In this document: piece by piece, positions 16,963-22,269 of the stretch
Position numbering within the stretch: position 1 is the first letter of the stretch
How the letters are laid out: each line of letters opens with the position of its first letter
Assembly (NCBI GenBank): GCA_028278405.1
Contig: JANQEK010000010.1
Coordinates: 1-48,152, forward strand
Direction of reading: 5' to 3'
DNA: 48,152 nucleotides
Origin: Nitrospinaceae bacterium
GTDB taxonomy: Bacteria; Nitrospinota; Nitrospinia; Nitrospinales; Nitrospinaceae
Position numbers and translations under genes: made by a program
Notes under the pieces: model-generated
What the model saw: the letters and a program-made list of their open reading frames with translations, nothing else
The model's database searches: none
Told to the model about the DNA's origin: nothing

Positions 16963-17155
16963 AAAAAAATGCTTCCCCGCGAATGCCGTGCAAAAATCAT
17001 TTTTTGAACCTGCCAAGGACAGGTGGGATCTCCGTAAACTGCTTCAGGCTTCCTCCGGGGAGGCATGCTCACCACAGCTAGTTTCGACCCCTGGTTTTAA
17101 TGTTGGCTCAAGAATTGATCTTGTACTCGAGCACCACAGGGAAGCACAATACCCC
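16963..17155 (-). ncRNA. ssrS: 6S RNA (SsrS), regulator of sigma70 RNA polymerase
   Basis: 6S RNA mimics an open promoter and sequesters housekeeping RNA polymerase. On the minus strand I see, in order: a 5' closing-stem strand TGCTTCCC (plus 17139-17146), TTGAGCCAACATT (central bubble, as in the E. coli TGAGCCGATATTT), the hallmark GGTGAGCATGCC (17062-17073) with its CCTCC/GGAGG apical hairpin followed by AAGCC, the 3' side hairpin ACCTG/CAGGT (17008-17024), and a closing GGGAAGCA followed by seven T. The length of ~190 nt matches the family (184 in E. coli). The position between zapA and fau is the classical one. The 5' end is uncertain by about 10 nt. Confidence 0.9.
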
Positions 17156-17207: not shown

Positions 17208-17540
17208 TCACTTGGCAGCCCCTCTGGAGGACTTGATCTGACTCAGTTCTTTTTCGACCATTTGCACCAAATGGCGGGCTTTTTGGTCCTCCTCCTTCTG
17301 GCCCGATTTTTTCTGCGCCATCTCCTTTTTCTGGGCCTCTTTTATTTCAAACAATTCTCCGGCAATATTCAAGGCGGTCAAAATAGCCAAATCAATCATC
17401 GATGGTTTCGTTTTACTGCCCGATAATTCGTGCATCCTTTCGTCCACATAATCCGCCAGATCCTGTGGACTGACATCGGACAAATCGGTTTTGATATTAT
17501 AGGTTTTCCCGTAAACGGTGATCCGGCTTTTTTCAGTCAT
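17208..17540 (-). CDS. zapA: Cell division protein ZapA
   Basis: Small FtsZ-bundling protein of the division ring. The 110-residue product has the ZapA core (ITVYGKTYNIKTDLS, YVDERMHEL, the LAILTALNIAGELFEI helix) and a C-terminal coiled coil rich in K/E. It lies 5 bp after the ZapB-like gene and upstream of 6S RNA. The C-terminal ~40 residues are lysine-rich beyond the usual domain. Confidence 0.92.
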   Translation of the reverse strand: MTEKSRITVYGKTYNIKTDLSDVSPQDLADYVDERMHELSGSKTKPSMIDLAILTALNIAGELFEIKEAQKKEMAQKKSGQKEEDQKARHLVQMVEKELSQIKSSRGAAK

Positions 17541-17545
17541 AGGAT

Positions 17546-17827
17546 TTAGGGAGCGTCACCGATTTTTTCGATTCCCGCCAAAAGGTTCTTCACAGTATTC
17601 CGGATTTTACTCTGATCCTTTTCTAACTGTTTGTGTGCACTTTCCAGTTTTCCCAATCGTTCGATCTTGCCCTGCAGGCTTGCCCCGTTTTTCTGGGCAC
17701 GCTCCAAATCCGAACGGAAAACTTTTAGCTCCTTCTGCAAACGCTGATTATCTTCACGCAACTGCCGGGTTTCATCGACCAACTTGGGGATCAATTCTTC
17801 CAGCTTGTCTATGGGGTTCTTGGGCAT
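17546..17827 (-). CDS. ZapB-like coiled-coil protein
   Basis: A 93-residue, almost entirely coiled-coil protein (heptads from IDKLEELIPKLVDETRQLREDNQRL to the NTVKNLLAGI helix). Small coiled-coil genes immediately upstream of zapA are commonly annotated as ZapB-like and are thought to join ZapA at the division ring. The role rests on context and composition, not on a catalytic motif. It begins 69 bp after pheT and ends 5 bp before zapA. Confidence 0.7.
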   Translation of the reverse strand: MPKNPIDKLEELIPKLVDETRQLREDNQRLQKELKVFRSDLERAQKNGASLQGKIERLGKLESAHKQLEKDQSKIRNTVKNLLAGIEKIGDAP

Positions 17828-17889: not shown

Positions 17890-17905
17890 CGCGAAATCAC
17901 TCGCG
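17890..17905 (-). other. Hairpin with the pheT stop codon in its loop
   Basis: Minus strand CGCGA-GTGATT-TCGCG: a perfect 5-bp stem whose 6-nt loop contains the TGA stop of pheT. No U-tract follows. Confidence 0.5.
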
Positions 17906-19990
17906 AAGAGCTGCACCCAACTGATCTGAAAGGCTTCCCACGATTTTCTCGAAAATGGGGTTCACTTCTTCGTCGGTCAGTGTTTTTTCGGGAGACTGAA
18001 AAGAAAGGGCGAAGGTCAGACTTTTCTTGCCGGAGGGTAGTCTTTTCCCCTGATATTGATCGTACAATTCCACCCGGCGGATCAACGGTCCGCTGGTTTG
18101 ACGAATCAAATCTGAGATGGTCTGGGCCTGGACGGTCTGATCCACCAAAATCGAAATGTCCCGGTAGGTTTCCGGATATTTGGGAATGGATTTGAAACGG
18201 GTCTGCTCGGGAATCGACGCCGCCAATGCTTCCATATTCAATTCAAAGACATAGATATTGGGACTCAGTTCCCATTGGGTAGCCAACGCCGGGGCCAATC
18301 GGCCCAGGTAAGCGATACATCGATTCCCGATAAAACCCTCCGCAGATTGACCGGGATCCAGAAAACTCCGCTGTGATGATTGATATTCCAACTCCACCTG
18401 AAAATGTTCAGCCAGGGTTTCCAACGCGCCTTTCAAATCATAAAAATCGAACGGTTTGCCGCTGTCCTTCCACACGCTGTTGGGATAAGGACCCGTGGCC
18501 AGTGCGGCGAGACAGGCAATTTCATGGGAGCCTTTGCCCTTCTTGCTGAAAAAAATGTGGCCCTGCTCGAAAATTTGCAGGTTCTTTTGTCCCCGGTTGA
18601 TGTTGCGTGCGGCTGATTTGATCAAACCCGGCAACAAGCTGGGACGCATGGTGTTCATATCCGAACTGATCGGGTTGTCCAACCGAACCACCGCCGGGGA
18701 TGAATCGCCAAACGTATCCAAAAAACGTTGAGACCAGTCATCCTCGATAAAACTGTAGTTAATCGCTTCCGAATAACCGAGATTGCGTAAGACCTCTTTA
18801 CCCTGCCGGACGGCAGATTGAATTTTCGAAAACCGGACCGGGCTCACCGAAGCCACCGGATGGGAAATTTCAACCTCGTCATACCCATCGAGACGTGCCA
18901 CCTCCTCGATCAAGTCTATCTCACGGGTCAATGTGGGACGAGACGACGGCGGCTCGACCAGATAACATTCGCCGGTCTTTTTTTCTTTTACGATCGTCAC
19001 ACCGAGACCCTTCAGGTACTTCACGATTTTTTTGGCGCCTAGTTGAGTGCCCAGAACCTGGTTGGTGCGTGAAATACGGAAATCAAACCGTCTGGACTTC
19101 CGGGATTTAAAATAAATGTCGACCCGTCCCTTGCAGATGTCACCACCCGCCAACTCCTGAATCAACAATGCTGCCCGGCTGGACGCGGTTGCAACCGCTT
19201 CAATATCGACATCGCGTTCGAAACGGTAGGAAGAATCGGAACGCAGGCCGTATTTTTTAGACGCTTTGCGCACCGCGACCGGATCGAAACTGGCGCTCTC
19301 CAAAACCACGGTCTGCGTGGATTCATCCACCTGGCTGTTTGCACCTCCCATGATCCCCGCCAAGGCTACCGGTTTTTCGGCATCGGCGATCACTAACGCA
19401 TCAGTCGACAATTTTAATTCTGTACCGTCCAATGCGGCAAACGGCTCTCCCTTACGGGCTCGGCGAATAACAATCTTCGGTCCAGCTAGCCGTGCAATGT
19501 CAAAAGCATGCAGAGGCTGACCGTACTCCATCATGACAAAGTTGGTAACATCGACAACATTGTTGATGGGACGCAGACCCACCGCTTTCAACCGGTCCGC
19601 CAGCCATTTGGGAGAAGGGCCGGGTTTGACGTTCTCGATCACCATCGCGGTATAACGCGGACACAACTCCGGCTCTTCATTGACCACAGTGATCCTTTTC
19701 TTTACCGGGGTCGTTCCCATGGCTTTGGTCAATTGTTTGTCCGGCGCGGGCAGTTTGCATTTCTTATGAATCATCGCTCCGACTTCACGGGCCACGCCGA
19801 TATGGCTCAAACAGTAGCCACGGTTGGGCGTTACGTTCAACTCGAGCACCTCGGTGGTTCGTCCGCCGCCCAAATCCACCGATTCACGGCTTTCGATTTC
19901 CAACCCTCCCATGGTGAGCAGGTCGCTCAGTTTCTTTGCAGACAAACCATGGTCGATGTAAGTTTTCAGCCAGTCGAGTTGAATCTTCAT
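17897..19990 (-). CDS. pheT: Phenylalanyl-tRNA synthetase beta subunit, lacking the EMAP tRNA-binding domain
   Basis: Beta subunit of PheRS (alpha2beta2). The 697 residues contain the B3/B4 editing domain (~100-280), a B5 domain (~300-370), the synthetase-like core and the C-terminal FDX-ACB anticodon-binding domain (~605-697, with YPETYRDISILV). Unlike the usual ~800-residue protein, the N-terminal MKIQLDWLKTYID...GLEIESRE passes almost directly into LNVTPNRGYCLSHIGVAREVGA, so the ~100-residue OB-fold (EMAP/B2) domain is absent. The usual TPNRxD reads TPNRGY. pheS is not adjacent: the upstream neighbour is the divergent rnr. Confidence 0.95.
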   Translation of the reverse strand: MKIQLDWLKTYIDHGLSAKKLSDLLTMGGLEIESRESVDLGGGRTTEVLELNVTPNRGYCLSHIGVAREVGAMIHKKCKLPAPDKQLTKAMGTTPVKKRITVVNEEPELCPRYTAMVIENVKPGPSPKWLADRLKAVGLRPINNVVDVTNFVMMEYGQPLHAFDIARLAGPKIVIRRARKGEPFAALDGTELKLSTDALVIADAEKPVALAGIMGGANSQVDESTQTVVLESASFDPVAVRKASKKYGLRSDSSYRFERDVDIEAVATASSRAALLIQELAGGDICKGRVDIYFKSRKSRRFDFRISRTNQVLGTQLGAKKIVKYLKGLGVTIVKEKKTGECYLVEPPSSRPTLTREIDLIEEVARLDGYDEVEISHPVASVSPVRFSKIQSAVRQGKEVLRNLGYSEAINYSFIEDDWSQRFLDTFGDSSPAVVRLDNPISSDMNTMRPSLLPGLIKSAARNINRGQKNLQIFEQGHIFFSKKGKGSHEIACLAALATGPYPNSVWKDSGKPFDFYDLKGALETLAEHFQVELEYQSSQRSFLDPGQSAEGFIGNRCIAYLGRLAPALATQWELSPNIYVFELNMEALAASIPEQTRFKSIPKYPETYRDISILVDQTVQAQTISDLIRQTSGPLIRRVELYDQYQGKRLPSGKKSLTFALSFQSPEKTLTDEEVNPIFEKIVGSLSDQLGAALRE

Positions 19991-20148: not shown

Positions 20149-22269
20149 ATGGATCTCTCCGAAACCAAGATATTAAAACTCCTGCGCGCGAAAACCAACC
20201 GGCCCATGAAATTTTCGGAGCTCATGAGCCTCCTGGGCATTCCCGAAAAACAGCGTCGGGAGTTCCGAGCTCAACTCAAGGAAATGGCGCACGAAGGATC
20301 GGTGGTCAAACTGCGCGGCGGACGTTACGGCCTGCCGGATGAAATGAATCTGATTCCCGGCGTTTTGTCCGGCCACCCGGACGGCTACGGATTTGTGATC
20401 ACCGAGGACGATTCGGAGGACATTTACATCAGCCGCAATAAACTGGGCGGTGCGATGCACAACGATCACGTTCTGGTGCGTATCGAATCTCGCGCCCACC
20501 GCTTCGGACGGCAGGAAGGACGAATTGTCCGCATCCTGGAACGCCGCACCACTACGCTGGTCGGCCTGTTCGAAGCCCTGAACCGGGACGGCTGGGTGAT
20601 CCCTTCAGAACATAAGTACTTTCAGGATGTGTTCGTGCCCGGCAAGGAGAAAAAAGGCGCGAAACCGGGGCAACTAGTTTCTGTGGAAATCATCACCTAT
20701 CCCACGCGGCACCATCCCCCGGTGGGGCGGGTCATCAAAGTGCTGGGAGATGCCAACGACCCTGAAGTGGAACTGCGCTCCATCATCCATAAATTCGGCG
20801 TGCGCCAGGAGTTTTCTTCCAAAGTCCGGAAACAGGTGCAAAAAATTTCCGGGAACATCAGCGATCGGGAAAAGAAGCAGAGACGCGACCTCACTGGAGA
20901 AATGATTTTCACCATCGACGGCGAACGCGCCAAGGATTTCGACGACGCGGTTTCGCTCGAAACCACGGAAAGCGGCTATCTGTTGGGAGTTCATATCGCC
21001 GACGTCAGTCATTACGTCACAGAAAACAGCCCGCTCGATAAAGAAGCGCTGGAACGCGGTACCAGTATCTATTATGCGGACGGGGTGATCCCGATGCTGC
21101 CGTTCGAATTGTCCAATGAGTTGTGCAGTCTCAAGCCGAGGCAGGAACGCCTGACCCTGAGCGCCTCAATTGCATTCGATAAACAGGGCAATGTCTTGAA
21201 CTACGAGCTTTTCAACTCAGTGATCAAAAGTAAATTCCGCTTCACCTACAATCAGGTGGCGGAAATGCTGGAAACCCGTTCAACGGACAAAAAATATGCG
21301 AAGGCTCTGCCGGTATTACAGAGTATGTTCGAGCTCAGCCAGCTGCTGCGCAAACGCCGGTTTCAGGAAGGCAGTGTCGACTTCAACATCCCCGAGCCGG
21401 AAATCCTGATGGGCCCCAACGGCCAGGTTCAAAACATCGTGAAGGCAGGACACAACGTCGCCCACGAACTGATTGAGGAATTTATGCTGGCGGCCAACCG
21501 GGTCGTGGCGGAACATCTCGACAAAAAAAACCTGCCGGGAATTCACCGTATCCACGAAGCACCCGATCAGGACAAACTGCACCGATTCCAGGAATTCATC
21601 AAGGATATCGGGTTTCGCCTGCCGAGTCTTCGCAACGTGCAGTCGGATCACCTGCAAAATCTGCTGACGCGGGTGCGTGGTCATGCCGAAGAGCGGTCTA
21701 TCAACCTCTTGCTGTTGCGATCCTTGAAAAAGGCGGTGTATTCGGAAAAAGATCCGGGGCATTTCTGTCTTGGGTTCGAGCACTATACCCATTTCACCTC
21801 CCCTATCCGCCGCTACCCGGACCTGGCGACGCACCGGATGGTTAAAACTTTTCTCTCCAAAAAGAAGGCGAGTCAACAGGACCGGAAAAAACTTCTACCG
21901 GTATCAAGGAGTCAGGCTGAGCAATCCAGCATGAGGGAGATCAAAGCGATGGAAGTGGAACGGGAAGTCGCCAATCTCCGACGGGCACAATTTATGGCCG
22001 ATAAAGTGGGTAAGGAATACGCCGGACACATTGTATCGGTCACCGGGTTCGGACTGTTTGTGGAACTGGACAAAGTGTTCGTGGAAGGATTGATCCACAT
22101 CTCCAGTCTGGGAGACGATTACTACATCTATTACGAACACGAGCACATGCTGAAAGGCCAGCATAAGTACAAGACGTACCGGATCGGTGACGCCATTCGG
22201 GTGCGTGTTACGGGTGTCGACATTTCCAAAAAACAGATCGACCTGACTCCTGTGTTTAAAAAGCGTTAG
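20149..22269 (+). CDS. rnr: Ribonuclease R
   Basis: Processive 3'-5' exoribonuclease that can degrade structured RNA. The 706 residues show an N-terminal winged helix (1-65), cold-shock/OB domains (~70-240), the RNB catalytic domain (~245-575) with IDGERAKDFDDAVSLE supplying catalytic aspartates, and a C-terminal S1 domain (~620-705, GFGLFVELDKVFVEGLIHIS). It lacks the long basic tail of the E. coli enzyme. It diverges from pheT. Confidence 0.97.
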   Translation: MDLSETKILKLLRAKTNRPMKFSELMSLLGIPEKQRREFRAQLKEMAHEGSVVKLRGGRYGLPDEMNLIPGVLSGHPDGYGFVITEDDSEDIYISRNKLGGAMHNDHVLVRIESRAHRFGRQEGRIVRILERRTTTLVGLFEALNRDGWVIPSEHKYFQDVFVPGKEKKGAKPGQLVSVEIITYPTRHHPPVGRVIKVLGDANDPEVELRSIIHKFGVRQEFSSKVRKQVQKISGNISDREKKQRRDLTGEMIFTIDGERAKDFDDAVSLETTESGYLLGVHIADVSHYVTENSPLDKEALERGTSIYYADGVIPMLPFELSNELCSLKPRQERLTLSASIAFDKQGNVLNYELFNSVIKSKFRFTYNQVAEMLETRSTDKKYAKALPVLQSMFELSQLLRKRRFQEGSVDFNIPEPEILMGPNGQVQNIVKAGHNVAHELIEEFMLAANRVVAEHLDKKNLPGIHRIHEAPDQDKLHRFQEFIKDIGFRLPSLRNVQSDHLQNLLTRVRGHAEERSINLLLLRSLKKAVYSEKDPGHFCLGFEHYTHFTSPIRRYPDLATHRMVKTFLSKKKASQQDRKKLLPVSRSQAEQSSMREIKAMEVEREVANLRRAQFMADKVGKEYAGHIVSVTGFGLFVELDKVFVEGLIHISSLGDDYYIYYEHEHMLKGQHKYKTYRIGDAIRVRVTGVDISKKQIDLTPVFKKR

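Follow-up and report, generated by a model that had tools for sequence, protein, structure and literature searches.

A bacterial-type phenylalanyl-tRNA synthetase beta subunit without domain B2 in Nitrospinota

By its title, Roy and Ibba 2006 reportedly found the RNA-binding domain of phenylalanyl-tRNA synthetase (PheRS) to be dispensable and to contribute to editing. A natural lack of this domain, the OB-fold domain B2 of the beta subunit (PheT), has been stated for many CPR bacteria (e.g., OGE14653.1) in a passage of an article of 2017 in Life (PMC5370408). The openly licensed literature searched yielded no description of such a loss for bacteria other than CPR, and no paper naming both Nitrospina and phenylalanyl-tRNA synthetase. 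EvoProDom (PMC8409312) treats indels of PheRS domains, and B2 loss is absent from the parts of it consulted. Mycoplasma PheT is functional when split after B1-B2-B1, according to a section of PMC12494982, which shows the modularity of PheT, and bacterial pheS and pheT may be unlinked, as a passage of PMC8464048 has it. Here we describe a PheT without B2 encoded in a stretch of 48,152 nucleotides from a Nitrospinaceae bacterium (the window), and its relatives in this and other phyla.

The window pheT and its genome

The pheT frame of the window (Table 1) starts with ATG and is open throughout, and the B3_4, B5, tRNA_synthFbeta and FDX-ACB domains follow one another in order, each above its Pfam gathering cut-off. 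No match to the tRNA_bind/EMAP OB domain (PF01588, B2) was obtained in this protein by the Pfam search. The protein scored 645.3 bits against TIGR00472 (pheT_bact; cut-off 402.65), and because the best stretch begins at residue 46, which corresponds to profile position 158, about 115 profile positions representing B2 are missing. The preliminary description, made from the sequence alone, had thus read the gene correctly as an intact PheT with all later domains and without the OB domain. The archaeal-type profile TIGR00471 was also considered, and gave 113 bits, below its cut-off of 283.

Table 1. Features of pheT and of its neighbours in the window
Feature	Position	Strand	Basis
pheT, bacterial-type PheRS beta subunit without domain B2 (697 aa)	17897..19990	-	ORF, Pfam, TIGR00472
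Domain B1, first half (residues 1-40)	19871..19990	-	Alignment to full-length PheT (short stretches score weakly alone), model
Hairpin turn (residues 41-44), B2 insertion site of other PheTs	19859..19870	-	AlphaFold2 model, alignment
Domain B1, second half including TPNRGY (residues 45-109)	19664..19858	-	Alignment
Tyr59 codon (Asp in the non-Nitrospinota rows counted)	19814..19816	-	Alignment
B3/4 editing domain (residues 110-282), with H161, G215 and E231	19145..19663	-	Pfam B3_4, alignment
B5 domain (residues 303-370)	18881..19084	-	Pfam
B6-B7 catalytic-like module, tRNA_synthFbeta (residues 378-586)	18233..18859	-	Pfam
B8, FDX-ACB anticodon-binding domain (residues 603-696)	17903..18184	-	Pfam
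zapB-like coiled-coil ORF adjoining pheT, conserved neighbour	17546..17827	-	Name by inspection
zapA-like ORF, conserved neighbour	17208..17540	-	Name by inspection
rnr (RNase R), divergent, where pheS normally stands	20149..22269	+	Profile match

The B2 site is occupied by 7 residues in the window PheT versus at least 56 in the B2-containing rows of the alignment. Residues 1-39 align, weakly by themselves, to the start of solved PheTs, and M1, W7, L8, Y11, T26, G29 and E31 are invariant with B2-containing PheTs in a 54-row alignment. A frameshift or a wrong start was rejected, as the frame is open and the first half of B1 is present in it. The replacement of Asp by Tyr in the TPNRxD motif was also noted correctly at the outset: the window PheT has TPNRGY, while the aligned position is Asp in 38/38 non-Nitrospinota rows (22/22 B2-containing, and 13/13 and 3/3 B2-less). 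The nearest named records are MAGs of Nitrospinaceae, Nitrospina and Nitrospinota with 84-88% identity.

An AlphaFold2 model built on the 54-row alignment has a mean pLDDT of 88.6 and a pTM of only 0.57. Strands 31-41 and 44-52 of the model form a beta-hairpin at the site of the B2 insertion in other PheTs, so the gap left by B2 is predicted to be closed by this hairpin. Aligned to Thermus thermophilus 1pys_B with VIA-align, the model gave a Z of 48.1 and an rmsd of 23.3 Å over 658 residues; because the rmsd to solved full-length chains exceeds 20 Å, the placement of the domains in the model is unsure or different. In an f9 relative (L192; kinship groups are given below), an in-frame proline/glycine-rich insertion of the PPPLQGGG type, perhaps a small repeat element, lies at the hairpin before TPNR, which fits a permissive surface loop.

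The PheS partner is present in this genome. Its single pheS is located on another contig (G000:C25:187006-187743) beside frames that resemble rplT and infC by inspection, in agreement with the earlier remark that pheS is not adjacent to pheT and that a divergent rnr stands upstream. A second full-length pheT and a stand-alone tRNA-binding protein, both raised in the preliminary description, were looked for and not found: B3_4 matches once in the genome (95.2% complete by tool), in the window pheT, and the only PF01588 match by profile search is at the end of metG. The frame following metG (L001:104-1492, minus strand) looks by inspection like a fusion of a TatD-type nuclease with a radical-SAM domain, and similar frames occur in L202 and L203. 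A 6S (SsrS) RNA (Rfam RF00013, 90 bits) lies at 16970-17145 of the window on the minus strand, between the zapA-like ORF and an ORF that resembles 5-formyltetrahydrofolate cyclo-ligase (names by inspection).

Distribution of B2-less PheT

Seventy-seven Nitrospinota genomes were searched with the TIGR00472 profile and the relatives were sorted into kinship groups f1 to f9; the surveyed genomes overlap with the named Nitrospinota loci, so that the two sets are not independent. An uninterrupted B2-less PheT, matching from profile position 153-160 on, was found in 61/77 genomes, the junction being read in one locus per genome (58-59 by motif pattern, G021 and G070 directly). The same junction was seen in pieces in five others, namely G006, G037, G039 (where the piece ends just before TPNR), G041 and G052 (missed by the motif pattern and read directly). 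Nine genomes are uninformative for B2, of which G003, G004 and G053 have C-terminal pieces only and G020, G051, G056, G067, G069 and G072 show no PheT. No bacterial-type PheT with B2 was among the matches listed for the 77 genomes. The distance from the conserved Trp to TPNR is 42-63 residues in 59 Nitrospinota genes (47 in 44/59), and the loss is present in f1, f2, f4, f5, f6, f8 and f9. The loss of B2 is genuine and phylum-wide in Nitrospinota. The remaining two genomes, G013 (f3) and G068 (f7), have an archaeal-type PheT above the TIGR00471 cut-off with pheS nearby (L174 and L175), which has apparently replaced the bacterial type.

Two further features of the window gene have a narrower distribution. 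The pheS gene directly adjoins pheT in f6 (G042, G043), f8 (G070) and f9 (G071, G073, G074, G075), and was not found for G072 and G076. The two genes are apart in f1, f2 and f4, by hundreds of kilobases in the single-contig genomes G008, G017 and G031, and in f5 (G041) the pheS locus runs for >4 kb without pheT. In 26/26 loci of relatives (L064-L089), rnr is upstream and divergent of pheT, with one to two kilobases between them in a few, and 24/26 have a zapA match after pheT (none in L077, while L088 stops at the contig end). TPNRGY is found in 53/61 uninterrupted Nitrospinota genes, and Asp is kept in eight (f6, f8 and f9); of the five genes in pieces, Tyr is present in three and Asp in G041 (f5), and the position cannot be read in G039. 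Counted by distinct sequence, Tyr is present in 47/55 Nitrospinota sequences, a motif count that missed 21 other rows and two of Nitrospinota, both of them one f8 protein that was inspected by eye. The change of Asp to Tyr was observed in f1/f2/f4 alone. Because f6, f8 and f9 are without B2 and yet keep both the Asp and the adjacency of pheS and pheT, the loss of B2, the split of pheS from pheT, and the change of Asp to Tyr are separate changes and not one package.

For other phyla, samples of about 145 genomes each were drawn around named loci (Syntrophaceae for Desulfobacterota, Chloroflexi for Chloroflexota, and Firmicutes for Bacillota). A PheT match was obtained in 140/143 Desulfobacterota genomes, with an intact B2-less PheT in 3/140 (G118, G155, G188), and in 143/146 Chloroflexota genomes, with 0/143 clearly B2-less. 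Bacillota gave a match in 139/144 genomes, and 13/139 are B2-less (G375, G388, G392, G403, G408, G422, G434, G445, G461, G473, G486, G496, G507). The junction, checked in all 16 B2-less PheTs of Bacillota and Desulfobacterota, has 2-3 residues versus at least 56 in B2-containing rows. Contig-edge fragments were left out of these counts (G450 and G482 of Bacillota, G181 of Desulfobacterota, G282 of Chloroflexota). L219 (G447, Bacillota) has a masked stretch that leaves its B2 state undecided; it was entered as a B2 row in the 52-row tree and the AU tests described below and excluded from the counts of changes and residues. Among 50 non-Nitrospinota named loci, a TPNR-like motif stands at frame position 123 or beyond; the distance from Trp to TPNR was measured directly in 30 of them (154-160 in 29, 229 in one), and the other 20, missed by the motif pattern, were placed only by motif position in the open frame. 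The locus with the lowest motif position, L138, is truncated by the start of its contig and contains B2-like sequence.

Given these 13/139 Bacillota and 3/140 Desulfobacterota, B2 is a common but by no means universal domain of bacterial PheT. The preliminary description had called the missing ~100 residues nearly universal, which does not hold. Its suggestion of a lineage-specific architecture was right in that the B2-less form is fixed across the Nitrospinota lineage, and wrong in that the form occurs also in Bacillota and Desulfobacterota and, as stated in PMC5370408, in many CPR bacteria.

Editing, number of losses and alternative readings

The equivalents of Escherichia coli PheT N254, H265, G315, G318 and E334, numbered from the alignment to the E. 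coli chain, are invariant in 29/29 B2-less and 22/22 B2-containing rows, including the window PheT, where H161, G215 and E231 correspond to H265, G318 and E334. The positions other than G318 are presumably involved in editing in E. coli. The G318W mutant of E. coli PheT has lost post-transfer editing and is sensitive to m-Tyr, while its growth is unchanged over 1920 conditions, according to a part of PMC4066437.

Judging from the sequence, we consider it very probable that the window encodes the sole beta subunit of a working (alpha-beta)2 bacterial-type PheRS, which charges and edits, and from which B2 was precisely removed from inside B1, as happened independently elsewhere. The OB-fold insertion would have been excised from within B1 and the two B1 halves rejoined, with the other domains and the editing residues kept. 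tRNAPhe would be aminoacylated normally by the catalytic alpha subunit with anticodon binding by B8, and mischarged Tyr-tRNAPhe would still be edited in B3/4. Trbp111, a member of the same OB family as B2, binds the 3' CA of tRNA (PMC11286949, in a passage of it), and by analogy B2 of PheRS may likewise bind the tRNA 3' end. Because an accessory domain of this 3'-end-binding fold is gone, editing is probably less efficient, and the 3' end is possibly passed on less well to the editing site. As separate steps, pheT would have parted from infC-rplT-pheS in f1/f2/f4 and f5, and the Asp of TPNRxD would have become Tyr in f1/f2/f4. The best reading is a PheRS that probably still works and has lost an accessory domain it could do without.

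A more ambitious and rather doubtful extension is that B2 is a conditionally useful module for 3'-end capture and editing, shed repeatedly when selection against mischarging with Tyr or m-Tyr is weak or when a remodelled B1/B3-4 copes without it, the fixed Asp-to-Tyr change of Nitrospinales beside the excision site being part of this remodelling. If it were true, Nitrospinota would be a natural counterpart of the laboratory deletion of B2.

We think it unlikely that editing degenerated in the B2-less lineages, making B2 useless before it was lost. Going by its title, Roy and Ibba 2006 reportedly credits B2 with a contribution to editing, and the window PheT has Ser at the equivalents of both E. 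coli T354 and A356, which would suit such a decay; however, Ser is found also in 5/22 and 7/22 B2-containing rows at these positions, respectively, and the five editing positions named above do not vary in any B2-less row.

Compensation in trans, in which a stand-alone tRNA-binding protein (Trbp111/CsaA-like) or the C-terminal domain of MetRS received the OB domain or took its place, has a still smaller chance in our opinion. The PF01588 domain retained in MetG of the window's genome is compatible with it, and a class-level relative, G070 (f8), has a stand-alone PF01588 protein of 134 aa (L200:2169-2573, minus strand) just after an sdhB/frdB-like ORF. This EMAP/Trbp-like protein may be a split-off C-terminal domain of MetRS, because it is the only PF01588 match of its genome. 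Against compensation, none of 80 genomes has more than one PF01588 match (72 have one and eight have none), and 61/72 matches belong to a frame of 634-712 aa, the length expected of MetG, some of the other 11 being in broken or contig-end frames. Moreover, G118, a B2-less Desulfobacterota genome that includes a 3.4 Mb contig, has no PF01588 match at E 0.001, so that its MetRS also seems to be without the OB domain.

How often the domain was lost was approached with unrooted trees, the B2-less group having been named before tree building and long branches being in play. A 55-row tree, built without the B2 columns, has five B2 changes, and places the B2-less Desulfobacterota rows within a Desulfobacterota clade (97/98) beside B2-containing rows. 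On this tree a single clade of all B2-less PheTs is 36.5 log units worse and not rejected (p-AU 0.0587), partial unions gave p-AU of 0.123 and 0.204, and the 17 Nitrospinota rows as one clade are not rejected either (p-AU 0.485). A 52-row tree, which has 13 additional Bacillota rows and a smaller number of other rows, needs eight B2 changes; it rejects a single origin of all B2-less PheTs (p-AU 0.000228), which the 55-row tree did not, as well as a joint clade of B2-less Nitrospinota and Bacillota (p-AU 0.00334). Independent loss is thus supported in at least Nitrospinota and Bacillota, and favoured less firmly in Desulfobacterota. The simplest account for Nitrospinota is a single loss that preceded the divergence of its families; as neither tree draws the Nitrospinota rows as one clade, with deep forks open and a long branch at L045, the domain may instead have been lost more than once within the phylum.

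On these unrooted trees, loss is preferred over gain because the insertion site is fixed, B2 interrupting B1 at one common position in all aligned B2-containing rows. We accordingly give very little weight to an ancestral absence of B2 from bacterial-type PheT with later gain and spread between lineages, although B2-less PheTs are known in several phyla and archaeal/eukaryotic-type PheT, too, is to our knowledge without the EMAP OB domain: the common insertion place speaks against it, as do the position of B2-less rows among B2-containing phylum-mates and the rejection of these rows as one clade. An assembly deletion or a mis-annotated start can be dismissed, even though the named relatives in the phylum are MAGs, because the junction is shared by 66/77 genomes of the phylum, including the three single-contig ones, and the first half of B1 is in frame.

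Comparison with known PheRS beta subunits

A domain often taken as standard in bacterial PheRS has disappeared repeatedly, and its loss is nearly fixed in one phylum, Nitrospinota, which includes marine nitrite oxidisers. For genome annotation, this means that a PheT of 690 aa is not to be taken for a fragment. Natural B2-less enzymes would also allow the proposed proofreading role of B2 to be examined across related enzymes instead of by truncation. The B2-less E. coli PheRS of Roy and Ibba 2006 reportedly misses the same domain as the window PheT, as a laboratory deletion and not as a natural lineage.

With the beta subunit of the bacterial (alpha-beta)2 PheRS (TIGR00472; solved in 1pys, 2rhs, 3pco and 7k98), the window PheT shares both B1 halves, B3/4, B5, B6-B7, B8 and the editing residues, and differs from it by the absence of B2, Tyr59 for Asp, and the unlinked pheS. 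Of the archaeal/eukaryotic type (TIGR00471), human 3l4g_B aligned to the model with a VIA Z of 23.5 and an rmsd of 9.3 Å over 509 residues, and the window PheT, in contrast to this type, has a C-terminal FDX-ACB domain and is below the TIGR00471 cut-off. B2 is usual, and not defining, for the bacterial PheRS beta subunit. The window protein is a TIGR00472-type PheT without B2, just as stated for the CPR forms, which are known here by the statement in PMC5370408 and lack the same domain in a different phylum; the loss of B2 in Nitrospinota is nothing unusual in kind, this accessory domain having been lost independently several times.
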